In this document: piece after piece, positions 746 through 14,314 of the stretch
Position numbering within the stretch: the first letter of the stretch is position 1
Layout of the letters: the number at the start of each line of letters is the position of its first letter
DNA from: Candidatus Tayloriibacteriota bacterium
GTDB taxonomy: Bacteria > Patescibacteriota > Minisyncoccia > Phycocordibacterales > JAKAEA01
Reading direction: 5' to 3'
Assembly (NCBI GenBank): GCA_029288535.1
Contig: JARIGY010000020.1
Coordinates: 1-16,304 of the forward strand
DNA: 16,304 bases
The notes under the pieces: generated by a model
The model's input: only the letters and a program-made list of their open reading frames with translations
Database searches by the model: none
What the model was told of the DNA's origin: nothing
Translations under genes and position numbers: made by a program

Positions 746-2464
746 TTAGCGATCGGGCGGGATCTCATAGTAGTTTATCAGAAATTTTTCAATATTGACA
801 AACGGCTCGGTCAGCGTGTGAGAGGCGTACTCGACTCCCTGCGGCTTGAGCGTGTAGAGGAAAACGAGGAAGCGCGGATTGTATGATGGAAAATAGCCGA
901 AAAAAGAGTGGAGGTATTGGTTGGGATAATATTTGCCGGTCGACGGATCCACAATCTGGGCGGTACCGGTCTTGGCCGCCACGCTGTAATGATCCATTTT
1001 TACGGCGCCCACAAGAAGCGCGTTGTCCACCACCCCGGTAAGCATTTTTGAAATCTCATGCGACGTTTCCGGCTTGAGAACCTGAAGCGGCGCAGGCTCT
1101 GTTATTTTTCGGGAAAAACCGACATTGTAGTCTATCTCCTTCACGACGTGCGGCGTGATAAGCTTGCCGCCGTTGGCGAGGACAGACAAAGCGCGGGCAA
1201 TGGCGACCGGACTTTCGGCAATTCCCTGGCCGAACGACGCGGTGGCATATTCCACGTCGCGCGGGCTTTTAAGGTTGTTCATGAGCGGACTGGCTTCGTT
1301 GGGAAGGTCGATGCCGGTTTTCTCGCCCAGACCGTATTTATTGAGAAAATAATCTGCAAACACCCCATTGCCGGTTTTGCCTTCGACATATGCTGCGCCG
1401 AGGTTGAGCGACTCGTTGAGAATGGTCTGCATCGGAGTGCTGGGACCGCGGGCTTTCAAGTCGTAATTGCAGATAGTGCTCTTATTGAGCTTGATGCAGC
1501 CGGTGTCATTGTAGGTCGAATCGGGCGTGATCGCTCCCGTATCAAGGCCGGCGGCAAGCGTCAGCGGTTTGACGATCGATCCCATTTCGTAAATGCTCTG
1601 CACAAGCGGGTCGGTAAAGGATGCGATATTCTTCGTCTGCTGGAATGTGTTCGGATCGAACGACGGGTTTGCAGCCATGGCATAGATTTCTCCGGTATTG
1701 GGATCGATGACGATGCCGCCGGTAATGACAGACCGGTACTGATCCTGCACTACCTGCAATTGCTTTTCGAGAGCTGCCTGGACGCTCGGCTCGATGGTAG
1801 AAACGATATCGCCCTCCGTCTTGCCGGTATCGGTAAGCGTCTGGTGGATGTCGGAGAAAATTTCGGCGAAGAAGTTTACATACACATCATCTCCAGTCCG
1901 GGTCAGCGTAGACTCATATTGTTTTTCCAGGCCATATTGGCCGGACACGGTCGTGCCGTCCTTATTGAAGCCGACAAAACCGAGCAGCTGGGCCGCAAGC
2001 TGCTGGCCGGGATAGTACCGCCACTTTTCTTCGTACGTATTGACGCCCGAGATGGAAAGCGCATTCACTGCCTTTGCGATATCGGGGTCGGTGCGCTTGG
2101 CTATCTCTTCATAGCTGTCATTCTGCTTTGTCGCGCGCGCAATAAAATCAGCATGATCCAATTTGATTACTGCAGAAAGTTTGGCATACGCATCTTCCGG
2201 GTTTTTTATAAGCTTGGGATTGATCGCAATAGTATACCCGAGCCGCAATGACGCCGCCGCCATGAGCGTAGTATCTTTTGACTGGAAGAAAATGGTGCCA
2301 CGGTCGAAAACGCCTCCGACAGGCTGGATATATTGCCTATCGGCGCGTTCGCTGAACTGTTTGCCCGAGACGATCTGCACGAGATAGAGTTTCGTCGCCA
2401 AAAATAGCGCAAAAATAATGCAGACGATAGAAACAATCCGGATTCTGACGACGGGGTCGCTCAT
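746..2464 (-). CDS. ftsI: Class B penicillin-binding protein (FtsI/PBP3-like transpeptidase)
   Basis: This is a membrane-anchored D,D-transpeptidase that crosslinks peptidoglycan, probably at the septum. The protein has 572 residues. A short cytoplasmic tail and a membrane helix at about residues 10-31 are followed by a dimerisation domain and then the transpeptidase domain. The three active-site motifs are intact: SIVK at 296-299 (serine nucleophile), SLN at 352-354 and KTG at 498-500. Length is typical for the family and there are no C-terminal PASTA repeats. It lies 22 bp after the FtsL-like gene and 1 bp before murF, the usual dcw order, which favours the divisome enzyme over PBP2; a second class B protein (8647-10365) sits with mreBC. 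The ATG at 2464 is preceded by no clear Shine-Dalgarno sequence. The assignment as class B PBP is certain; the septal role rests on context. Confidence 0.92.
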   Translation of the reverse strand: MSDPVVRIRIVSIVCIIFALFLATKLYLVQIVSGKQFSERADRQYIQPVGGVFDRGTIFFQSKDTTLMAAASLRLGYTIAINPKLIKNPEDAYAKLSAVIKLDHADFIARATKQNDSYEEIAKRTDPDIAKAVNALSISGVNTYEEKWRYYPGQQLAAQLLGFVGFNKDGTTVSGQYGLEKQYESTLTRTGDDVYVNFFAEIFSDIHQTLTDTGKTEGDIVSTIEPSVQAALEKQLQVVQDQYRSVITGGIVIDPNTGEIYAMAANPSFDPNTFQQTKNIASFTDPLVQSIYEMGSIVKPLTLAAGLDTGAITPDSTYNDTGCIKLNKSTICNYDLKARGPSTPMQTILNESLNLGAAYVEGKTGNGVFADYFLNKYGLGEKTGIDLPNEASPLMNNLKSPRDVEYATASFGQGIAESPVAIARALSVLANGGKLITPHVVKEIDYNVGFSRKITEPAPLQVLKPETSHEISKMLTGVVDNALLVGAVKMDHYSVAAKTGTAQIVDPSTGKYYPNQYLHSFFGYFPSYNPRFLVFLYTLKPQGVEYASHTLTEPFVNIEKFLINYYEIPPDR

Positions 2465-2486
2465 TGAAACTTATTGTACCACGCGA

Positions 2487-2825
2487 TCAGCGTGAAGAAT
2501 TAAATGAGAGCGTTGCTGCGGGCTTTTGCTGCGCCAAAAACGTAGTTGGAGAAAAATCCATAAAGCCTTTTTCATGGGCCAGATCGAGCGTAATACTGTC
2601 CTTGAGCGTAATGTATTTGAATTCAAGTCCGCCTATCGATGTGGAGAGCGTAGCAACCGTACGGCCGGTCTGCTCCCTAGCAACGACATTCATGACTGTC
2701 CTGTTGACGAGATACACATACAGCGCAAAAAGAGAGACGAGCAGCGCAAGCGCCGCGAAAAACAGGACTTTGGTGTTGAGTGCCTGGAGCTTATTGAGCG
2801 ATAGTGCGTGAGCTTTTGTTTTCAT
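2487..2825 (-). CDS. FtsL-like bitopic division protein
   Basis: This is a 112-residue protein with one predicted membrane helix at about residues 18-40 after a short basic cytoplasmic tail, followed by an extracytoplasmic segment of about 70 residues. That is the architecture of FtsL, the small divisome subunit that pairs with FtsB and helps activate the septal synthase. FtsL sequences diverge so strongly that I recognise it by size, topology and place: it sits between rsmH (2 bp gap) and ftsI (22 bp gap), exactly where ftsL lies in most dcw clusters. The extracytoplasmic part is not a convincing long leucine zipper, so coiled-coil pairing cannot be claimed from sequence alone. It ends in TGA at 2487-2489, which supports TGA being a stop in this genome. 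Confidence 0.75.
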   Translation of the reverse strand: MKTKAHALSLNKLQALNTKVLFFAALALLVSLFALYVYLVNRTVMNVVAREQTGRTVATLSTSIGGLEFKYITLKDSITLDLAHEKGFMDFSPTTFLAQQKPAATLSFNSSR

Positions 2826-2827
2826 TG

Positions 2828-3727
2828 CTATATTTTTTCGATAATTCGTAATTTTGCACTGCGAGCCCTGCGATTTCCCGAAAGCTCATCCTGTGCTGCC
2901 GTAATCGGCTTCTTCGTGATGAGGTTCGCCAGATCCTCGTGCGCTTTGCTTCTAAAAAAGTTTTTGACGATCCGGTCTTCGAGACTATGAAATGAGATCA
3001 CCGCCATCCTGCCGCCGGGTGCCAATCTTTCGAAACCCTTTTCGATCCCCTCTTCGAGCGCTTTGAGTTCCTGATTGACGGCAATGCGTATGGCTTGGAA
3101 CGTTCTCGTAGCGAAATGGATTTTGCCTTTTGTGTATTTGACAGGCACCGCAGATTTGATGATGGCGACAAGCTGATGAGTGGTCTTTATCGGCTCGATA
3201 GCCCGGGCGTAGACGATGGCGTGAGCGATCTTATTGGCATATCGATCTTCGCCGAAACCGCGGATGATCGTCTGGAGCGTATCCTCCTGCCAGGTGTTGA
3301 CCACATCTTCGGCCGTCGTATCATCTTCGCCGGCTTCCTTGGCGAATGTCATCCGCAAAGGCTCGTCGAAACGAAAGCTGAAACCCCGGCCCGATTCGTC
3401 GAGCTGGTTGGAGCTTAATCCGATATCCAGCAGGATCCTGTGTACCTTCTGAATACCAAGCGTATCAAGAATAGTATCGATGTTCCGGAAATTACCCTGA
3501 ACGAATGCCGCGTCGGCTTCCATCTTTTGAAACCGGGATGTTGCCCGGGCCAATGCTTCAGTGTCCATGTCGATGCCGATGATCCGCACCGTTTTGCCGA
3601 AGCGTTTTGCAACCTCTTCGGCATGGCCTCCCGAACCAAGCGTGCCGTCGACATATATGTCGCCAGGCTGGATAGCGAGACCGTCTATTGAATTATGTAA
3701 AAGAACGCTGCTGTGGCCGTATTCCAT
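2828..3727 (-). CDS. rsmH: 16S rRNA (cytosine(1402)-N(4))-methyltransferase RsmH (MraW)
   Basis: RsmH uses S-adenosylmethionine to methylate the exocyclic N4 of C1402 in the 16S rRNA decoding centre. The 299-residue protein has all the family signatures. These are GHSSVLL near the N-terminus, the SAM-binding DGTLGSGGHA at 27-36 and GIDMD at 51-55, DIGLSSNQLDESGRGFSF at 101-118, HFATRTFQAIRIAVNQEL at 204-221, ISFHSLEDRIVKNFF at 244-258, and the C-terminal RRARSAKLR at 286-294. Length is close to the usual 300-315. It follows mraZ by 3 bp and ends in TAG 2 bp before the FtsL-like gene, so it is almost certainly on the mraZ transcript. No Shine-Dalgarno motif stands at a normal distance from the ATG at 3727. 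Confidence 0.98.
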   Translation of the reverse strand: MEYGHSSVLLHNSIDGLAIQPGDIYVDGTLGSGGHAEEVAKRFGKTVRIIGIDMDTEALARATSRFQKMEADAAFVQGNFRNIDTILDTLGIQKVHRILLDIGLSSNQLDESGRGFSFRFDEPLRMTFAKEAGEDDTTAEDVVNTWQEDTLQTIIRGFGEDRYANKIAHAIVYARAIEPIKTTHQLVAIIKSAVPVKYTKGKIHFATRTFQAIRIAVNQELKALEEGIEKGFERLAPGGRMAVISFHSLEDRIVKNFFRSKAHEDLANLITKKPITAAQDELSGNRRARSAKLRIIEKI

Positions 3728-3730
3728 GGC

Positions 3731-4165
3731 TTAGAAGGCGCCGACCTCTCCGAGTTTCTGTGCCAACGTATCGGCCTCGGATTCGATCTTCCTCTTGTAC
3801 TCGGCCCACTTCGTAGAATTCCAAAGTTCGATGCGATTGTGGACGCCTGTTAAGACGACTTCCTTATCGAGCTTTGCAAAACTTTTGAGATGTTCCGGGA
3901 TGAGCATCCGACCGACCGCGTCGACGTCTACATCCATGGCACCTGCCAGCATAAAACGATTGAACCCTCTCGTGTCGGCCTGGCCCATGCTGAGGCCAGC
4001 CAGCTTCTCCGCTATTTTTTCCCATTCTCCCAATGGGTACAGGAACAAACAGTTATCCAGGCCGTGCGTGATGACAACTTTCTTGCCGACCTCCTTCCGG
4101 AATTTTGCCGGAAGCGAAATGCGGTTTTTGTCGTCTATCGTATGGGTGTATTGGCCGAGTAGCAT
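3731..4165 (-). CDS. mraZ: Transcriptional regulator MraZ
   Basis: MraZ is a double AbrB/SpoVT-fold DNA-binding protein that forms ring oligomers and, where studied, represses its own dcw operon by binding short direct repeats upstream of mraZ. This copy has 144 residues, the normal length. The two DxxxR motifs that define the tandem domains are present: D11-R15 in DDKNRISLPAKFR and D82-R86 in VDAVGRMLIPEH. It is the first gene of the dcw operon, 3 bp ahead of rsmH. Its promoter (4222-4249) is embedded in a seven-box operator (4200-4262), which makes autoregulation very likely. The leader is about 50 nt by promoter position. The only Shine-Dalgarno-like AGGA lies about 16 nt from the ATG, too far for normal use. 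Confidence 0.97.
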   Translation of the reverse strand: MLLGQYTHTIDDKNRISLPAKFRKEVGKKVVITHGLDNCLFLYPLGEWEKIAEKLAGLSMGQADTRGFNRFMLAGAMDVDVDAVGRMLIPEHLKSFAKLDKEVVLTGVHNRIELWNSTKWAEYKRKIESEADTLAQKLGEVGAF

Positions 4166-4199
4166 GTTATTTCTGTAACTTTCCTAAATCTGAAACCTA

Positions 4200-4262
4200 C
4201 CACTTTCTCCCACTTACAACCATTATATCCCACTCTCTTCCATTTACAACCATACTTATCCA
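4200..4262 (-). promoter_or_regulatory. MraZ operator: seven TGG boxes at exact 10-bp spacing
   Basis: On the minus strand TGG occurs seven times in perfect 10-bp register. The plus-strand CCA triplets start at 4200, 4210, 4220, 4230, 4240, 4250 and 4260. Each box is purine-TGG followed by six variable bases; the best copies read GTGGGA. Known MraZ sites are TGGG-type boxes with 5-bp spacers, usually three or four of them, so both motif and period match. The array spans the -35 and -10 elements of the mraZ promoter and ends 34 bp before the ATG. Confidence 0.88.
4222..4249 (-). promoter_or_regulatory. Predicted mraZ (dcw operon) promoter
   Basis: Reading the minus strand, a consensus -10 element TATAAT lies at 4227-4222. 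A -35-like TTGTAA lies at 4249-4244 (four of six matches to TTGACA), with a 16-bp spacer. Transcription would begin near 4215, giving a leader of about 50 nt. Both elements fall inside the MraZ box array, so bound MraZ would block RNA polymerase directly. Confidence 0.72.
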
Positions 4263-4285
4263 CTTTTATTCCCGCTTCGCACAAT

Positions 4286-4336
4286 AAAAAACAGCTTTAC
4301 GGAGTTGTAAAGCTGTTCATCTTCCAAAGGGAAGAT
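4286..4336 (-). terminator. Two-hairpin rho-independent terminator
   Basis: Reading the minus strand after the small membrane-protein gene, a 7-bp stem (4330-4336 with 4319-4325, 4-nt loop) is followed after one base by an 11-bp perfect stem (4307-4317 with 4290-4300, 6-nt loop). Six consecutive T follow (4291-4286). It ends 24 bp before the first MraZ box, so it separates the lysS/ABC transcript from the dcw operon. Confidence 0.85.
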
Positions 4337-4340
4337 TCGA

Positions 4341-4472
4341 TTACGGTATTCCAAAAATAAAGTGAACTGCGAAAAAAACAAGAGACATGGTGAGAAGCCC
4401 GCCGAGAACGATTTTCTCAGCAAGGTTACGCTCAAACCAAAATTCTTTCCATTCTTTCCAGAAACTCAGCAT
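4341..4472 (-). CDS. Small single-pass membrane protein, unknown function
   Basis: This is a predicted protein of 43 residues. It has a tryptophan- and charge-rich N-terminal half (FWKEWKEFWFERN) followed by one hydrophobic segment at about residues 20-41 that runs nearly to the C-terminus. I chose the ATG at 4472 because AAAGG stands 5 nt upstream of it (4478-4482). The reading frame remains open upstream to a TTG at 4538, but that would add 22 residues with no ribosome binding site. A strong two-hairpin terminator starts 4 bp after the stop, as expected at the end of a real transcription unit. I do not recognise a family. It could be a small membrane-associated peptide linked to the upstream ABC exporter, but that is only proximity. 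Confidence 0.6.
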   Translation of the reverse strand: MLSFWKEWKEFWFERNLAEKIVLGGLLTMSLVFFAVHFIFGIP

Positions 4473-4477
4473 ATCTG

Positions 4478-4482
4478 CCTTT
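4478..4482 (-). promoter_or_regulatory. Ribosome binding site deciding the start at 4472
   Basis: Minus-strand AAAGG lies 5 nt before the ATG at 4472. It is one of only two clear Shine-Dalgarno motifs in the window and the reason for preferring the 43-residue form of the small membrane protein. Confidence 0.55.
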
Positions 4483-4524
4483 CTGCTCCCTGAGCAAATG
4501 ACTAATGGAAATACTACTGCAAAT

Positions 4525-4565
4525 TTATAAAAAAGCAATTATAAAATATAGAGGTTAGACCTCTA
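4525..4565 (-). terminator. Possible weak terminator after the DUF1653 gene
   Basis: A perfect 7-bp stem with a 3-nt loop (4549-4555 with 4559-4565) starts 1 bp past the TAA at 4567. On the minus strand it is followed by an AT-rich tail with an interrupted T stretch and a run of six T at 4534-4529. The T-tract is not directly next to the stem, so termination may be partial. Confidence 0.4.
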
Positions 4566-4566
4566 C

Positions 4567-4887
4567 TTACTCACTGAGATACATTTTCTTCTTGATTTCT
4601 TCAAGCTGTTTAATAACTTCAGGATCTGTAATTTTAGTAAACCGCGGGAAAGTTTTGCCATCTTTTTCGAGTGCCCCAATAAACATATCAAAAGGTCTGG
4701 ACTGAAAATTTGCTGGCGGCATCTATTCGCTTTCATAAAGCGGCCTATAGAGCACAGTAAAAGTATTTTCCTCTGTATTTCGCGCGATACCCACTACTTC
4801 ATACATGTAGTTATACTTTTTTCCGTGTGGGTCGTGCTTGTAATGATAATAAAAACCCTTTTCTGGAAATATTGTTGTATTGTGCAT
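4567..4887 (-). pseudogene. DUF1653-family protein interrupted by an in-frame TAG
   Basis: One minus-strand frame from the ATG at 4887 to the TAA at 4567-4569 encodes a DUF1653-like protein of about 106 residues, broken by a TAG at 4723-4725. The first 54 residues carry GFYYHYKHDPHG, YEVVGIARNTEENTF and VLYRPLYESE, the usual N-terminal half of this small family. After the TAG the same frame gives MPPANFQSRPFDMFIG, EKDGKTFPRFTKI and a lysine-rich tail (51 residues), the usual second half. The ATG directly after the TAG (4722) has no ribosome binding site. The TAG could be a single G-to-A change from a TGG tryptophan codon, although that residue is inferred. It follows the ABC exporter by 9 bp. 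DUF1653 has no established biochemical function that I can state. Alternatives are a sequencing or assembly error, or two separately made halves. Confidence 0.75.
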
Positions 4888-4896
4888 AAAATATAA

Positions 4897-6633
4897 TCAA
4901 GAATACATGCTTTGCTTCTGCCACATAGAAAAGTAACTACCTTTTGCATTTAATAATTCAGCATGAGTTCCTTGTTCGATTATTTTGCCCTCATGCATGA
5001 CTAAAATCCTATCAAGCCGAGAAATACTACTTAATCGATGGGCAATAATGATTGCAGTACGATTATGTATCATTCTAGGGATTGCATCTTGGATCAATTT
5101 TTCGCTTTCGCTGTCCAAAGCGCTGGTAGCTTCATCAAAAATAATTATAGAAGCGTTTTTTAACAAAGCTCTGGCTAAAACAATCCGTTGTTTTTGTCCT
5201 CCGCTTAGTTTTACACCACGCTCCCCCACAGTAGTATTATAACCTTCACTCAAATCTAAAATGAAATCATGAGCATGTGCAATCTTTGCAGCACTTATCA
5301 TTTCTTCATCGGTTGCTTCTCTGTTAAAATATAAAATATTTTCTTTTATTGTTCGGTGAAAAAGCAACGGTTCCTGAGGTACATACGAAATTTTTTGACG
5401 CAGCTCGCTTTGGCGCATATTTCTTATATCAACTCCATCTATCGCGATAGAGCCTCCATCAACATCATCAAAACGCATCAATAATCCGGCCAAAGTACTT
5501 TTTCCAGCCCCGCTTAAACCTATAATTCCGACATGCTCTCCACCTTTGATGATTAAATTCATATCCGTAAAGACAGGGTGGGATTTTTTTGTTTTATAAG
5601 CAAAAGCTACATTTTGCAGTTGAATTTCTGCTTTGGTCATTCGTAGGGATTGTGGATTTGCTATATCCATAATTGATTCATAGGCGTTCCCTAGATACTC
5701 AAGTGTCGGATATACTTTGGCGATATGCTCATCATTGCGCGATATGAGATCCGGCAGTTCACCAATGCTCTGCATTATTTGTAATAAATATATAAATATC
5801 AATACAATAAGGCCAACTGATTCGATACCGTTTCTGGTGGTATTAAGCGCAATATAAAATCCAAATACCATAGCTAGGCCAGTAAGTGCGATTCTCGGCA
5901 AATCGAAAAATGCGACGGCTTTGTGGCGCAACCAGAAGTTCTTCATCTCTTCTTCAGAAAGTTCTGCAACCTTCCTTAAAGACTCAGATTCATGGCCGGC
6001 CGATTTGAAGGCAACTGCATTTGTTAATTCATCTGATACTTCACCTGTCAATTTGCGGTATATTTCTTGTGCAGGTTTGCGGTATTTATTAACCCTACTG
6101 AATGACCACATGACATACGCCCCTAAAATTAAAACAGTGACTACCGCTAGCAAGCCAAGCGGCGGCCGCACAAAAAATAGAACAACAACGGGACCGAAGA
6201 GTGAAACAAACATTCTGACTGCATCACTGCGATGCAAACGAACCAGTGCCATTGTTCCATCCAGATGCTGTCTAAACAAACTTATTAGATATCCGGTTTG
6301 ATGATCGCGATAAAAAGACAGATCTTTGCCAACTAACTTTTGGTAATAGTTCATGAGCAACACCTTGTACCGTGTATCCGTCGTTTTGATCGCAAGTAAT
6401 TCACCGAGCGCACCAATTAATGTACCGGCAATATATACGAGTATAAAAAGAAGAATGAGAGATTTTGCCTTTTCAGTACTCCCTGTAGCCATATCTAATG
6501 CAAGATATGAAACAATAAGCACAAGAAAAACCTTTTGGGTAAGCGTTCTTATGCATTCAGTAACAATTCCAATCCAAAGTAATGGCAAATTGCCATAAGC
6601 ATGTAATAAATGTTTATATACAGCCTTTTTCAT
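4897..6633 (-). CDS. ABC exporter half-transporter (membrane domain fused to ATPase)
   Basis: This is an ATP-driven export protein of the fused type that works as a dimer in the cytoplasmic membrane. The 578 residues split into a membrane domain (about 1-300, with hydrophobic helices near 20-45, 56-80, 140-176 and 250-290) and a C-terminal ATPase. The ATPase is complete: Walker A GLSGAGKST at 372-380, Q-loop Q420, signature LSGGQ at 476-480, Walker B with D500 and E501, D-loop SALD, and switch histidine H532. Its substrate (lipid, peptide or drug) cannot be read from the sequence. It begins 6 bp after the lysS stop and so is probably co-transcribed with lysS. Its DNA is clearly AT-richer than its neighbours: a hand count gives 21 of 60 G+C at 5041-5100, against 37 of 60 at 9301-9360. 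This suggests a separate origin. Confidence 0.93.
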   Translation of the reverse strand: MKKAVYKHLLHAYGNLPLLWIGIVTECIRTLTQKVFLVLIVSYLALDMATGSTEKAKSLILLFILVYIAGTLIGALGELLAIKTTDTRYKVLLMNYYQKLVGKDLSFYRDHQTGYLISLFRQHLDGTMALVRLHRSDAVRMFVSLFGPVVVLFFVRPPLGLLAVVTVLILGAYVMWSFSRVNKYRKPAQEIYRKLTGEVSDELTNAVAFKSAGHESESLRKVAELSEEEMKNFWLRHKAVAFFDLPRIALTGLAMVFGFYIALNTTRNGIESVGLIVLIFIYLLQIMQSIGELPDLISRNDEHIAKVYPTLEYLGNAYESIMDIANPQSLRMTKAEIQLQNVAFAYKTKKSHPVFTDMNLIIKGGEHVGIIGLSGAGKSTLAGLLMRFDDVDGGSIAIDGVDIRNMRQSELRQKISYVPQEPLLFHRTIKENILYFNREATDEEMISAAKIAHAHDFILDLSEGYNTTVGERGVKLSGGQKQRIVLARALLKNASIIIFDEATSALDSESEKLIQDAIPRMIHNRTAIIIAHRLSSISRLDRILVMHEGKIIEQGTHAELLNAKGSYFSMWQKQSMYS

Positions 6634-8621: not shown

Positions 8622-8650
8622 AGTATATCCTTTTTTTGAAGCGAGGTCAA
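8622..8650 (-). promoter_or_regulatory. Predicted greA-lysS promoter
   Basis: On the minus strand, TTGACC at 8650-8645 (five of six to consensus) and TATACT at 8627-8622 (five of six) are separated by exactly 17 bp. The -35 element overlaps the TGA stop codon of mrdA (8647-8649). Predicted transcription starts near 8615, about 22 nt before the greA ATG. Confidence 0.75.
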
Positions 8651-10365
8651 TTGGCCAAATACTCAGGCGTGTTGATATGCATCCAATCGAAGAGCTGGCG
8701 GGCAACGTATGGCGCGCCAATGACGTTGTGGATCGGGCCGTGCTCCATCATAACTACGAACGAATAGCGCGGATTATCAAAAGGGAAAAAGCCCGTCACC
8801 CACGAGTTGTCGAAATCCTTATTGACGCCGAGCTCGGCCGTACCGGTCTTGGCGCCGATCTTCACATAGTCGACATTGAGCGCGGCAGCAGTACCCTGGA
8901 TAGCCGAGAGCCGCATGCCGTCATGCACGACATCGAAATAGGATCGCGGCAGGTTGATATGCTCGGCGCTGGCAATCATACTTGTATCATGGGCGATAAT
9001 GGTCGGATGCAGAAGCGTGCCGTAGTTGGCAACCGCGCCGATAGCCCGGACAACCTGAAGCGGCGTAACCTGAAAACCGTACTGGCCGATAACTGAGTGA
9101 TACGTATCGCCCAAGCGCCACGGTTCGCCGTTGAAATTTGCCGCCTTCCAAGCCGGCGAAGGTACCTGACCCTTTTGCAAACCGAAAAAAGGAGAGCCGA
9201 CGTCGTGACCGTAGCCGAACATCGACGTGTATTTGTCTATGTTGGCAATACCCATGCCCGGCTGGTCGCCGAAACCGCCGCCGACTTCATAAAAATAAAC
9301 GTCGGAAGACTGCTGGATGGCGTGGCGCATATCGAGCGGACCCTGATCCATCCAATCCCGAAAAACCGTTTTCTGGCTTGGATCGTACGGATTCTGGATG
9401 GAAATGGAACCGGTCGTATACAGAATCTTGTCCGGAGTAATAGTGTGCGTATCGAGCGCTCCGAGAGCCATGACGGGCTTTACGATCGAGCCAGGAGTGT
9501 AGAGACCTGACGTTGCCCGATCGAGCATCGGCGTCGATTTATCGGTAAAATAACTCGTGATGAGTTTTGCATTCGAACCGTCGGCCAGGACCTGGTCGTT
9601 ATATTCCGGGTACGTCACCTCCGCGATGATTTCGCCGGTTTTGACATCCATCATCACGCCGGCGCCGCCGGTAAAACCGCGGTCTTTGGCAACGCCGGAA
9701 ATGATATCGTAAAGCTGCGACTGGATGCGCGAGTCGATGCTCAGGTTCAAGCTCTCCCCGCTTTGGGGCGGATTCATGATATTTTGGGAAGCCACTCCGC
9801 CATGCGCGTCGGTCTCGGTTATCTTCACGCCGTTTTTGCCCTGGAGCCTGTCATTGAAGAATTTCTCCGCGCCGTCCATGCCGACATAGTCTTCGCGATA
9901 ATAGAAACCGGAGCTGTCTTTCGAAGGGTATTTTACATAGCCGACGATATTGGCGGCACCGGATGTCGTGGCATATTGGCGGGCGGAAAAATCCGGATCG
10001 TTATCATTGCCGACATTCCAGGCGAGCAGCGTATTGTTGCGGTCGTAGATCACGCCGCGATCCGCAAAAATGACCGTATTGCGCAGGCTGTTGTTTTCGC
10101 TTCGGGCTGCAAACGCCGCGCCTTGCTTCACCTGCAGATTCCAAACCCGGTAGCTGTACAGGATGCCGACGATCAGGAAAAAAATGCCCGTAGCCGCGAC
10201 AACTTTGCGCGAAATCGGCTTTTCCATCCTGCCTTCGAACTGGTCCCGGTCGAACTGCGGCAGATTGCTCGAGTCGAGAAAAATCTCATCCGGGTCGATT
10301 CCCTCTTTGCCCCGATTGAACCAGCTGCGTTTGAATTTTTTGCGGAATTGTAAAAATGGATTCAT
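8647..10365 (-). CDS. mrdA: Penicillin-binding protein 2 (elongasome transpeptidase)
   Basis: This is a class B D,D-transpeptidase for side-wall peptidoglycan synthesis, partner of the MreBCD system. The 572 residues comprise a cytoplasmic tail of about 50 residues (longer than usual), a membrane helix at about 53-72, the dimerisation domain (NTVIFADRGVIYDRN at 96-110) and the transpeptidase domain. Active-site motifs are SIVK at 293-296, SSD at 353-355 and KTG at 506-508. The SSD form of the second motif and the WRLGDTYHSVIGQYGFQVTPLQ-type segment (416-437) are characteristic of PBP2 rather than FtsI. It lies at the end of the mre operon, 11 bp after the mreD-like gene. Its stop codon overlaps the -35 element of the greA promoter. 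The matching length of the two PBPs is chance, as their sequences differ throughout. Confidence 0.94.
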   Translation of the reverse strand: MNPFLQFRKKFKRSWFNRGKEGIDPDEIFLDSSNLPQFDRDQFEGRMEKPISRKVVAATGIFFLIVGILYSYRVWNLQVKQGAAFAARSENNSLRNTVIFADRGVIYDRNNTLLAWNVGNDNDPDFSARQYATTSGAANIVGYVKYPSKDSSGFYYREDYVGMDGAEKFFNDRLQGKNGVKITETDAHGGVASQNIMNPPQSGESLNLSIDSRIQSQLYDIISGVAKDRGFTGGAGVMMDVKTGEIIAEVTYPEYNDQVLADGSNAKLITSYFTDKSTPMLDRATSGLYTPGSIVKPVMALGALDTHTITPDKILYTTGSISIQNPYDPSQKTVFRDWMDQGPLDMRHAIQQSSDVYFYEVGGGFGDQPGMGIANIDKYTSMFGYGHDVGSPFFGLQKGQVPSPAWKAANFNGEPWRLGDTYHSVIGQYGFQVTPLQVVRAIGAVANYGTLLHPTIIAHDTSMIASAEHINLPRSYFDVVHDGMRLSAIQGTAAALNVDYVKIGAKTGTAELGVNKDFDNSWVTGFFPFDNPRYSFVVMMEHGPIHNVIGAPYVARQLFDWMHINTPEYLAN

Positions 10366-10376
10366 GCGGTTTGCGC

Positions 10377-10640
10377 TTATCTGCCGTAAAATCGAAGCCG
10401 GCGCTTGAGCGTTTCGGCAATGACGAAAAGAAAAACTGCGAGAAGCGTGATGACGAATTGAAAATGATGGAACGGCGCGATAGGGGCATTATAGAGCGAA
10501 TCGATACCGATGCCAAGAAAAAGGATTTCATAAAAAGAGGAAAAAATGAAAAGGCCGGCGACCCCGAACAGCATGGCGGCCCACCAGGGGAAAAGAAACA
10601 GCGAAATCAGGAGCAGGATATCGGCAAAGATCCTTCTCAT
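10377..10640 (-). CDS. Short MreD-like multi-pass membrane protein
   Basis: This is an 87-residue, very hydrophobic protein with about three predicted membrane helices (near 6-22, 24-45 and 60-79) and a basic C-terminus (ETLKRRLRFYGR). It sits between mreC and mrdA, the standard place of mreD. MreD is the integral membrane subunit that joins MreC and PBP2 in the elongasome. The start overlaps the mreC stop by one base (TAATG), implying translational coupling. Typical MreD proteins are around 160 residues with five or six helices, so this would be about half size. The role is inferred from position and topology; I see no diagnostic motif. Confidence 0.65.
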   Translation of the reverse strand: MRRIFADILLLISLFLFPWWAAMLFGVAGLFIFSSFYEILFLGIGIDSLYNAPIAPFHHFQFVITLLAVFLFVIAETLKRRLRFYGR

Positions 10641-11443
10641 TATTTTTTTTCAATCATGACATACCCGAGCGCCGTCACGTCTGCGGCATTTTTGAAAAGC
10701 GCGCGCTCAAACGAATCGACCGCACTCGCATTGATGACCTCGATCGAGCCGAGCATCATCACCGAGGTTGAAGAAGCGAGCGAAACCGTATCGCCTTCTT
10801 TCACCTGAGTATTCTTCGGCAGCTTTATTTCAAAATTGCCGGCGCCATGCCCTGTCGCCAGGGATTCGACCGAGCTTGAACCGATAAGCACCGGCGTTTC
10901 CCTGTCGGGCGAAGAATAGAGCACGACAGTGGAGGTGCGCTCCGACACATCGCTCACTGTGCCGAGAACGCTATTTTCATCGGCAAGCACCAGGTCGCCG
11001 ATCTTGATCCCTGCGGTTTTGCCGGCATCGACAATCATCGTGTCGTACGGGGAAAAACCGGGTTTTGAAATGATCCGCGCAATCGCGAACTTCCTATCGG
11101 CAGTCGTGCTCGTAGCCAATTTTTCGAGAGCGGCATTCTGGTCTTTGTAAAAATCGCGCTCGGTTTTGATCGCGTCCGAAAGCGCAAGCTTGTCTTTGAG
11201 CGCCTGGTTTTCGGCCACGAGCGATGCTTTGAAATGAAAATAATTCCAGACCGCATCGAAACCGCCGCCGATGCCGCCGCGAGCCGCAAGGACGGGTCCG
11301 CCCGCCGTCTGCAGTGCAGGCGTAAGGATATGCGGCTTCCAGATATTCAAAACGACAGCCAGGACAAGTACGCCGCCAACAATGCCGGTAGCGACCGCTG
11401 TTTTTCTGCGTTTGCGCCGATTATCGCGCTGGGGGTAGATCAT
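10640..11443 (-). CDS. mreC: Rod shape-determining protein MreC
   Basis: MreC is a bitopic scaffold linking the cytoplasmic MreB filament to the periplasmic or outer face wall-synthesis enzymes. From the ATG at 11443 it has 267 residues. These are a strongly basic tail (RDNRRKRRK), a membrane helix at about 16-34, a coiled coil at about 72-110 (SLVAENQALKDKLALSD onward) and the two-part beta domain with IISKPGFSPYDTMIVDAG at 124-141 and IGDLVLADENSVLGTVSDV at 147-165. The start overlaps the end of mreB by 23 bp. The frame extends to a TTG at 11467, which I reject as lacking a ribosome binding site and adding overlap. The mreD-like gene follows with a one-base overlap. Confidence 0.92.
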   Translation of the reverse strand: MIYPQRDNRRKRRKTAVATGIVGGVLVLAVVLNIWKPHILTPALQTAGGPVLAARGGIGGGFDAVWNYFHFKASLVAENQALKDKLALSDAIKTERDFYKDQNAALEKLATSTTADRKFAIARIISKPGFSPYDTMIVDAGKTAGIKIGDLVLADENSVLGTVSDVSERTSTVVLYSSPDRETPVLIGSSSVESLATGHGAGNFEIKLPKNTQVKEGDTVSLASSTSVMMLGSIEVINASAVDSFERALFKNAADVTALGYVMIEKK

Positions 11444-12485
11444 CTTCGTTTTGGATAAGGACTTCAAAATACTTCGGCAGGTTTTCCAGTATGACGCCGG
11501 TGCCGCGAGCGACGGCAGTGAGCGGGTCTTCGGCGATATGCACGGGGATTTTCAAATATTCCCGAAGCATGGTATCCAAGCCGCGTATGAGGGCGCCACC
11601 GCCGGAAAGGTAGAGGCCGCGATTCATGACATCGGCGATCATTTCGGGCGGAGTGGTTTCCAGCACTTCTTTCGCCGCTTCAAGCAGCGTGTCGATGGAC
11701 TGCGAGGTCGCTTCACGGATATCGGCATCGGTAATCACCACTTCGCGCGGCAAACCTGTCACCAAATCGCGGCCTTTGATTACTGCTTCGAGCGGAGTTT
11801 CTCCGGCGAGGACTGTGCCGATGGCGATCTTGATATACTCGGCGGTTTTTTCCCCGATGAGGATTTTGAATTCGCCGCGGATGTAGGCAGTGATGTCGTT
11901 GTTGAGCTTGTCTCCGGCAACTTTCAGATTCTTGAATGTCACGACGCCGCCGAGTGAGATGACAGCGATATCCGTCGTACCGCCGCCGATATCGATGATC
12001 ATGCTGCCGACAGGCTCCATCACCGGCAGGCGGATGCCGATAGCCGCAGCCATCGGTTCTTCGACTATGAACACTTCCCGGGCGCCGGCATTCTTGGTCG
12101 CGTCGCGCACGGCCCGAGTTTCGACGTTGGTAATGCCGGATGGCACGCCGATAACCACTCTCGGTCCGAGAAATTTGCGCCCATCGGCCTGCGCCCTGTT
12201 TAAAAAGTAAGCGATCATTTCCTCGGTCACTTCGAAATCAGAAATCACGCCGTCGACAAGCGGCCGGATGGCGGTGATGTGCTGCGGCGTGCGGCCGAGC
12301 ATTTCCTTGGCCTGCGTGCCGACCGCGACAACCGTGCCTGTCTTCTGGTTGAGCGCCACAACAGATGGCTCGTTGAGAATGATGCCGCGACCACGAAGAT
12401 ACACCAGGGTATTTGCAGTACCGAGATCGATGCCGATATCGTGGCTGAACATTTTATTGAATTTGTTTCGGAAGTTCTTGAACAT
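11421..12485 (-). CDS. mreB: Rod shape-determining protein MreB (actin homologue)
   Basis: MreB polymerises with ATP under the membrane and directs elongasome movement, so this cell is probably rod-shaped or at least elongates by side-wall growth. The 354-residue protein has the actin-fold signatures. Phosphate 1 is DIGIDLGTANTLVY at 16-29. The connect region lies near VVIGVPSGITNVETRAV (110-126). Phosphate 2 is DIGGGTTDIAVI at 165-176. The adenosine loop is LYLSGGGALIRGLD at 291-304. The basic N-terminal extension MFKNFRNKFNKMF may act as a membrane anchor; an internal ATG at M12 is a possible alternative start. The gene follows proS by 5 bp, so it appears to share the proS promoter. Confidence 0.98.
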   Translation of the reverse strand: MFKNFRNKFNKMFSHDIGIDLGTANTLVYLRGRGIILNEPSVVALNQKTGTVVAVGTQAKEMLGRTPQHITAIRPLVDGVISDFEVTEEMIAYFLNRAQADGRKFLGPRVVIGVPSGITNVETRAVRDATKNAGAREVFIVEEPMAAAIGIRLPVMEPVGSMIIDIGGGTTDIAVISLGGVVTFKNLKVAGDKLNNDITAYIRGEFKILIGEKTAEYIKIAIGTVLAGETPLEAVIKGRDLVTGLPREVVITDADIREATSQSIDTLLEAAKEVLETTPPEMIADVMNRGLYLSGGGALIRGLDTMLREYLKIPVHIAEDPLTAVARGTGVILENLPKYFEVLIQNEDDLPPAR

Positions 12486-13915: not shown

Positions 13916-14314
13916 ATGACAGAGACCCTGAAAAAGCTCCCCCGCGTCCTCCTCCTTGACTGGCAAGGCCACTACGGTTTCCTCGAAGTTGAGGATGTCC
14001 AGAACAGGGTTGAGCTCGTGACTTTCGGTGGCAGGGAGCTACTGAAGTCTGTTCTCTGGTACCACCCGACAGCGAATAATTTCGCGGTCGGGATCGCCGA
14101 GACCGTCAGACAGGAAACATACGACCTCATCATCCTCGGCAACAACCAGGGTAACGGGGTCGAGATCGCAAAACTCCTGCCTGATGAAGCCAAGGAGAAA
14201 ATCGTCGTTGCATCGCACTTTGGGTGTGATGAAACGGGATATCGTGAACTTGGTATCAAGCGGTTTCATCAGCGCGGCGAATTGGTCGAGATTCTCAGAC
14301 TGTTTGCTGCCTAA
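13916..14314 (+). CDS. Small receiver-like protein without phospho-acceptor, unknown function
   Basis: This is a 132-residue soluble protein and the only plus-strand gene. Its alternating strand and helix pattern resembles a response-regulator receiver domain: RVLLLD at 10-15 (strand 1), YDLIILG at 69-75 (strand 3), KIVVAS at 94-99 (strand 4) and IKRFHQRGELVEILRLF near the C-terminus (strand 5 and last helix). The usual acceptor aspartate after strand 3 is replaced (LGNNQGNG) and the conserved lysine of strand 5 is missing (FHQR), so phosphorylation in the normal way is not expected. It has no DNA-binding output domain. It is monocistronic, with an extended -10 promoter, a strong ribosome binding site and its own terminator, which suggests high or independent expression. 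The receiver reading is a fold-level guess; no named family is recognised. Confidence 0.8.
   Translation: MTETLKKLPRVLLLDWQGHYGFLEVEDVQNRVELVTFGGRELLKSVLWYHPTANNFAVGIAETVRQETYDLIILGNNQGNGVEIAKLLPDEAKEKIVVASHFGCDETGYRELGIKRFHQRGELVEILRLFAA

Follow-up and report, generated by a model that had tools for sequence, protein, structure and literature searches.

The mraZ promoter of this Candidatus Tayloriibacteriota genome carries seven TGG motifs on the minus strand at exact 10-bp steps, which together fill positions 4200-4262 of the window (the whole stretch of 16,304 nucleotides analysed here). The array is probably an autoregulatory MraZ operator of the dcw promoter in an extended, family-specific form, in which a four-box core is shared with the order and box 1 lies at the place of a DnaA-box 9-mer. 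As judged from sequence comparison, the array is a variant form of an already known operator, to which MraZ is predicted to bind. The larger lead is a predicted DnaA box that is held at the mraZ promoter across an order.

The seven-box array and the mraZ promoter

The seven boxes are direct repeats in a single orientation, with GTGG in boxes 1, 4, 6 and 7 and ATGG in boxes 2, 3 and 5. Compared with the full box AAAGTG[G/T], box 1 (4260..4262, context AAAGTGGATAA, AAAGTGG) and box 7 (4200..4202, AAAGTGG) match at 7/7 bases, and box 4 (4230..4232, AGAGTGG) and box 6 (4210..4212, TAAGTGG) match at 6/7. Boxes 2 (4250..4252), 3 (4240..4242; TAAATGG, 5/7) and 5 (4220..4222) deviate from AAAGTG. The array overlaps a promoter-like TTGTAA-16-TATAAT sequence and lies 34 bp upstream of mraZ. 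Box 2 stands directly before the -35-like hexamer TTGTAA (4244..4249, minus strand), and the TTG of this hexamer is found in 5/5 family members. The -10-like hexamer TATAAT (4222..4227, minus strand) is located between boxes 4 and 5; its final T is the first base of box 5, which overlaps the end of the hexamer. A promoter scan of 3900-4900 found 2 promoter-like sites where shuffles give 2.2, so this match by itself is not significant and the promoter is supported instead by the equal place of the -10 and -35 in relatives. A terminator-like hairpin (4289..4318, minus strand) lies between an upstream small ORF and the promoter, and 2 terminator-like sites were found in total as against 0.8 expected from shuffles. 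The window contains no known RNA element at Rfam gathering thresholds.

The exact register described in the earlier note is confirmed. The TGG-N7 pattern repeated seven times has one match in the window, at 4262-4200 of the minus strand, and 200 shuffles that preserve dinucleotides contain no match. When the 300 bp upstream of mraZ are randomised 20,000 times under a first-order Markov model, runs of TGG at 10-bp steps never exceed three boxes (reached in 51 cases). The four-box runs in the genome's own assembly (792,295 bases, 107 contigs, 95.6% complete) are solely the four overlapping matches inside 4200-4262; none occurs elsewhere in that assembly, and a backwards control of the scan gave 0 matches. 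The assembly therefore holds no second array of at least four exact boxes that would point to a wider MraZ regulon.

A turn of B-DNA is about 10.5 bp. Since the 10.0-bp step is shorter than this turn, a drift of about 100 degrees accumulates over six steps, and the boxes are not strictly on one face of the helix as had been proposed.

The array had also been described as unusually long, which is correct for the phylum sample and does not hold as a claim of uniqueness. A seven-box match is present in 2 of the 379 genomes sampled from the phylum, and the second is a (TTGGG)n simple repeat; the genome of the window is therefore the sole one of the 379 with a seven-box array of this type, in a sample that does not include two family relatives with seven boxes. 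A pattern scan of contigs returned at least 119 stretches with seven-box arrays. MraZ was sought only within the DNA around each match, and among the matches listed at least 5 of the 119 arrays are upstream of a MraZ-like gene. In the remaining 114 some arrays are at the end of a stretch, where a neighbouring MraZ gene could be missed. The arrays of L008 (Acidimicrobiaceae) and L029 (an actinobacterium) have the same orientation relative to the MraZ-like gene as in the window, among the matches listed. Because at least five such arrays stand by MraZ-like genes outside the phylum, again among the matches listed, the length is not unique and the idea of seven boxes as a unique feature was discarded. 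A further observation among the matches listed is a seven-box TGG array of opposite orientation upstream of a MraZ-like gene in L018 (Alphaproteobacteria), L083 (Rhodospirillaceae) and L109.

The mraZ gene (3731..4165, minus strand, 144 aa) is the first gene of a dcw-type cluster and encodes both MraZ half-domains. Its product scores 127 bits with PF02381 and 157 bits with TIGR00242 (cut-off 98), and MraZ matches in the assembly occur only at this gene. Behind it lies a presumed regulated operon (746..3727, minus strand) that contains mraW/rsmH (2828-3727), an unnamed 112-aa ORF with no family match (2487-2825) and a penicillin-binding protein (746-2464). The unnamed ORF is in the usual place of ftsL and is called ftsL by position only. 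Genes for mreB, mreC and a second penicillin-binding protein are found at 8647-12485, which puts shape and division genes near each other on one stretch. A 132-aa ORF with no Pfam match (13916-14314, plus strand) is located amid otherwise minus-strand genes. MraZ rings of E. coli and Mycoplasma differ in size. A model of the protein built from a three-row alignment has a mean pLDDT of 85 and matches Mycoplasma MraZ structures, including M. genitalium MraZ entries that are titled as complexes with promoter and with 4 box promoter (9r4j, 9sz7). Literature searches found no paper on these new MraZ-DNA structures.

The array resembles two operators that have been characterised. In Mollicutes the MraZ operator consists of direct repeats of AAAGTG[T/G] (Fisunov 2016 as cited in PMC8475190). 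The window likewise has the AAAGTGG box at the mraZ promoter, with repeats that all point the same way, and no other place of this kind was found in the genome. The array differs from the Mollicutes case, for which the title of one complex names a 4 box promoter, in having seven unbroken boxes across both hexamers with box 1 over a DnaA-like box. In Burkholderia cenocepacia, four 7-nt repeats with 3-nt spacers are described in a region bound by MraZ in EMSA (PMC7761207). The repeat unit of 7 + 3 nt at the mraZ promoter is the same; however, the B. cenocepacia site is reported downstream of the -10, while the window has a core pair on either side of the -10 and an array that reaches beyond the -35.

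A G4 motif has been reported in a mraZ promoter, and a G-quadruplex controlling mraZ has been proposed for Staphylococcus aureus (PMC11796246, as far as its available text goes). The repeats here are likewise G-rich and at the mraZ promoter, but GGG occurs in just two boxes of the seven, loops of 7 to 8 nt would be required, and a G-quadruplex does not need an exact 10-bp spacing. A G-quadruplex was rejected on inspection of the sequence by eye, and is very improbable as the explanation of the array.

Conservation of the boxes in the family, order and class

Upstream regions of mraZ were compared in genomes that are mostly draft assemblies. MraZ was found in 143 genomes of the order, and 300-bp upstream regions were taken from 136 of them (G010, G093, G105, G106, G107, G131 and G147 were left out); L213 was dropped as no start was found, which left 4 family and 131 order loci. 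From 223 class genomes with MraZ, 22 loci were taken and L170 was dropped, which left 21, and 20 more loci were added later. From a set of 123 phylum genomes with MraZ, 40 loci of other classes were taken. The main set therefore has 156 loci (4 family, 131 order and 21 class). The order loci share descent, so their numbers cannot be read as numbers of independent events. The alignment was anchored on boxes 6 and 7 by a profile that had been trained on these same order loci, and the counts of boxes 2, 3 and 5 took box 4 as their anchor; the near-total conservation of boxes 4, 6 and 7 is therefore partly by construction.

MraZ is present and the array is kept in 5/5 family genomes examined. All seven boxes are found in G000, G001 and G004, and six in G002 and G003, where box 3 is TAG. 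In these five genomes 20 of the 21 TGG columns are invariant, compared with 21 of the 42 other columns of the array; the other invariant columns are mainly the bases after box 1, the -35 TTG, the -10 and positions near boxes 6 and 7. The leader of mraZ in G001 (L005) also has an inverted repeat, GCTCATCCGT ... ACGGATGAGC, between the array and the start, which was not seen by eye in other family members.

The alignment of upstream regions, a check set beforehand, finds the 10-bp box pair kept in the relatives. An AAGTGG pair at 10 bp is present in 148 of the 156 loci, where the pair AAGTGGGANNAAGTGG scores above every reversed and reverse-complemented control (family 4/4, order 128/131, class 16/21). 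Over the same threshold, 12 of the 20 later class loci have the pair, as do 29 of the 40 loci taken from the phylum's other classes. Box 6 is itself present in 147/148 loci as the anchor, and the positions of TGG relative to it, with the number of loci out of 146 to 148, are +10 (144), -21/-20 (99), -31/-30 (94), -11/-10 (38) and -52/-51 (63); the TGG at +10 is that of box 7 (144/148 loci). The longest exact run in 158 loci, including two that were later dropped, is seven boxes in 3 loci, five in 2, four in 9, three in 20, two in 119 and one in 5. In 3,160 simple shuffles (20 per locus) it is three boxes in 6 and two in 282.

The spacing of the boxes separates a core from the rest. A clear box 4 is present in 127 of the 144 loci examined; 98 of these show a distance of 21 bp between boxes 4 and 6, 27 a distance of 20 bp and 2 a distance of 22 bp. 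AGTG[GT] is present at the place of box 4 in 85/137 loci. Among order loci whose gap is 21 bp, 66/87 have the TGG of box 3 exactly in register, as against 0 to 3 when the register is shifted by 1 to 3 bp; where the gap is 20 bp, 11/22 have it. Box 5 has its TGG in 23/87 and 8/22 order loci, respectively. For box 2 the counts are 3/87 and 2/22, which do not exceed those of neighbouring shifts, so this box is at background level outside the family. By this comparison four boxes form the core that the order shares: boxes 3 and 4 precede the -10, boxes 6 and 7 follow it, and in most loci the two pairs are separated by 21 bp. According to the gap and box counts, the usual operator consists of two pairs that straddle the -10 and are out of step by one base; the family shows no such slip and carries additional boxes.

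Another proposed origin of the array is a three-box operator that was recently duplicated in tandem over 30 bp, and TRF does report a period of 30 with two copies at 81 percent. The two halves agree at 22/30 bases in the window, but at just 15/30, 14/30 and 18/30 in three relatives that carry the array, and the order as a whole shares boxes 3, 4, 6 and 7. The low match in relatives makes a recent duplication highly unlikely.

The same counts bear on the suggestion of the earlier note that seven equivalent MraZ boxes could be read at once by one ring or two and may give a steep autoregulatory response. The exact 10-bp register, the 7/7 boxes in three and 6/7 in two family members, and the same-orientation arrays upstream of MraZ-like genes in L008 and L029 (among the matches listed) are in agreement with it. 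Boxes 2, 3 and 5, however, deviate from AAAGTG, boxes 2 and 5 are not or only partly kept in the order, another element explains the position of box 1, and one solved complex is titled as having a 4 box promoter. It is therefore unlikely that the seven boxes are equivalent: the order conserves boxes 3, 4, 6 and 7 and, in part, box 5; outside the family box 2 does not rise above background; and the place of box 1 is that of the DnaA-box 9-mer. The broader claim that the array is a MraZ operator fares well, with a real MraZ gene adjoining, a period and box type as in characterised operators, and boxes that are kept in relatives.

A predicted DnaA box at the place of box 1

The exact 9-mer TTATCCACA is present on either strand in 112 of the 156 upstream regions (order 93/131, class 18/21, family 1/4 loci); the best of 300 shuffled 9-mers reaches 11. 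In the order, its start lies -62 to -48 from box 6 in 82/128 loci, with 67 in one orientation and 15 in the opposite one. When the upstream regions are divided into 15-bp bins, the 9-mer is at this fixed place in 81/125 order loci and in 0 to 7 loci elsewhere. The 9-mer at the fixed place or the box pair is missing in 49/131 order loci, and in 38/131 the 300 bp contain no 9-mer at all. At -52/-51 loci often have a full TGTGGATAA and not just TGG, and some have its complement. Among 137 loci measured from the -10, 31 have the start of the 9-mer at -38 and 19 have it at -37, which is also where AGTGGATAA starts in the window. In the later samples the 9-mer is found in 15/20 class loci and 16/40 loci of other classes, often at other places and also downstream of the boxes; the fixed place is therefore a feature of the order. 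In four loci of the same class (L169, L186, L355 and L369), DnaA-box-like GTGGATAA copies were seen on the downstream side of the MraZ boxes and not upstream of the -35, in some cases as two or three consecutive copies.

Upstream of recA the 9-mer has 0 exact matches in 28 regions of order genomes, compared with 19/28 upstream of mraZ in the same 30-genome group, although the two sets of 28 are not identical; 28 of the 30 recA loci could be oriented, one of them with only 120 bp upstream. The 9-mer occurs 18 times in the 792,295-base assembly, which gives a chance of about 0.007 for one occurrence in 300 bp. In the same genome TTATCCACA is found three times between dnaA and dnaN, together with two TTATNCACA relatives, and once upstream of dnaA. 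The genome has 32 TTATCCAC sites, and 20 stretches that cover part of them were taken. Contig 36 (L291, 1-6000) carries the probable oriC of the genome: five TTATNCACA boxes lie between dnaA and dnaN, and a further box is located upstream of dnaA. Next come ORFs that resemble rnpA and yidC and are named from sequence only.

The window has a one-base variant of the 9-mer. The DnaA-box-like TTATCCACT (4256..4264, plus strand) matches TTATCCACA at 8/9 bases and overlaps box 1, and its minus-strand start is 37 bases upstream of the -10. The TTATCCAC occurrence at 4256-4263 is at the same place as TGTGGATAA in order loci. TTATCCACT is common to G001 and G004, while G002 and G003 keep TGTGGATAA. Positions 4256-4264 do not match TTATNCACA, as the last base differs, and box 1 of the window is therefore called DnaA-like only. 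TTATCCACT is not among the five boxes that separate dnaA from dnaN in the same genome; together with the 8/9 match, this suggests that DnaA may not bind the site in the window. The A at the variant base also makes AAAGTGG, so a switch from a DnaA box to a MraZ box would be the simplest reading of the change. AGTGGATAA is also present at the place of box 1 in five other genomes of the order, which suggests that the change occurred more than once.

It is possible that the upstream TGTGGATAA is a variant of the MraZ box or the site of another factor and has no link to replication, but this is rather doubtful. The element contains GTGG and is often 20 to 21 bp from box 3, nearly in phase; GTGGATAA is found among MraZ boxes in other classes; and E. 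coli MraZ can bind over a DnaA box, as cited in PMC4446571. The base before GTGGATAA, however, is T in 67/72 cases, as opposed to A in 219/256 before the GTGG of boxes 6 and 7, and the element has the opposite orientation at the same place in 15 loci, while the MraZ boxes run one way. This contrast of the leading base and the positions speak against a mere MraZ-box variant. In addition, the whole 9-mer equals the boxes between dnaA and dnaN of the window's genome.

Proposed regulation of the division cluster

Under the preferred reading of an extended MraZ operator, MraZ on boxes 3, 4, 6 and 7 would cover the -10 and the start site and would repress mraZ and the genes behind it. Extra in-phase boxes may add affinity or spread. 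In the family, the two core pairs are separated by exactly 20 bp as opposed to the usual 21, and three more boxes are in phase with them: one at the end of the -10 (box 5), one ahead of the -35 (box 2), and box 1. The last of these is probably a captured MraZ box or a site of competition between DnaA and MraZ. In relatives, binding of DnaA beside the -35 could have an activating or a repressing effect; in the window, DnaA probably no longer has the site at box 1 or has to compete for it.

A wider possibility, put forward tentatively, is that the division promoter of the order reads DnaA (replication status, upstream of the -35) and MraZ (feedback, across the -10), and that the two may have been fused in the window's family by a one-base change, with MraZ displacing or competing with DnaA. 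A precedent in E. coli makes such a fused site slightly likelier. At the mioC promoter MraZ is reported to bind over part of the DnaA box, and overexpression of MraZ results in about 12-fold less mioC transcription (both Eraso 2014 as cited in PMC4446571). The mioC case is the closest in kind, since a MraZ site and a DnaA box share bases at one promoter, which is predicted from sequence here. It differs in that it is by oriC and in one species, while here the promoter is that of mraZ itself and the 9-mer is at a fixed place in many members of the order.

DnaA has also been placed at the promoters of ftsL in Bacillus subtilis and ftsZ in Caulobacter crescentus (Goranov 2005 and Hottes 2005, as cited in PMC8203912). 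The similarity is a DnaA site, predicted in the present case, at the promoter of a division gene; the difference is one predicted box at a fixed distance from the mraZ -10, order-wide, and beside or inside a MraZ operator. Two other reports count against the DnaA part of the explanation, as far as the sources describe them. The DnaA boxes upstream of ftsZ in E. coli have no role in ftsZ transcription (cited in PMC8203912), and in B. subtilis the ftsL-operon products RsmH and PbpB seem unchanged after DnaA boxes 6-7 of the origin are blocked (PMC11019786). A link between a DnaA box and the mraZ or dcw promoter in these bacteria was not found in the literature by title or abstract, nor in the available text of PMC12494982 and PMC7561715.

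According to PMC8203912, a major effect of DnaA on when cytokinesis takes place has so far not been shown. The genomes of the order are small (0.4 to 1.2 Mb). Given the deposited complexes of MraZ with promoter DNA, the seven-box array would be a natural test of the number of boxes that a MraZ ring can use. The predicted DnaA box, at one place of the mraZ promoter throughout the order and beside the operator of the cluster's own repressor, would make a role of DnaA in the timing of division directly testable.
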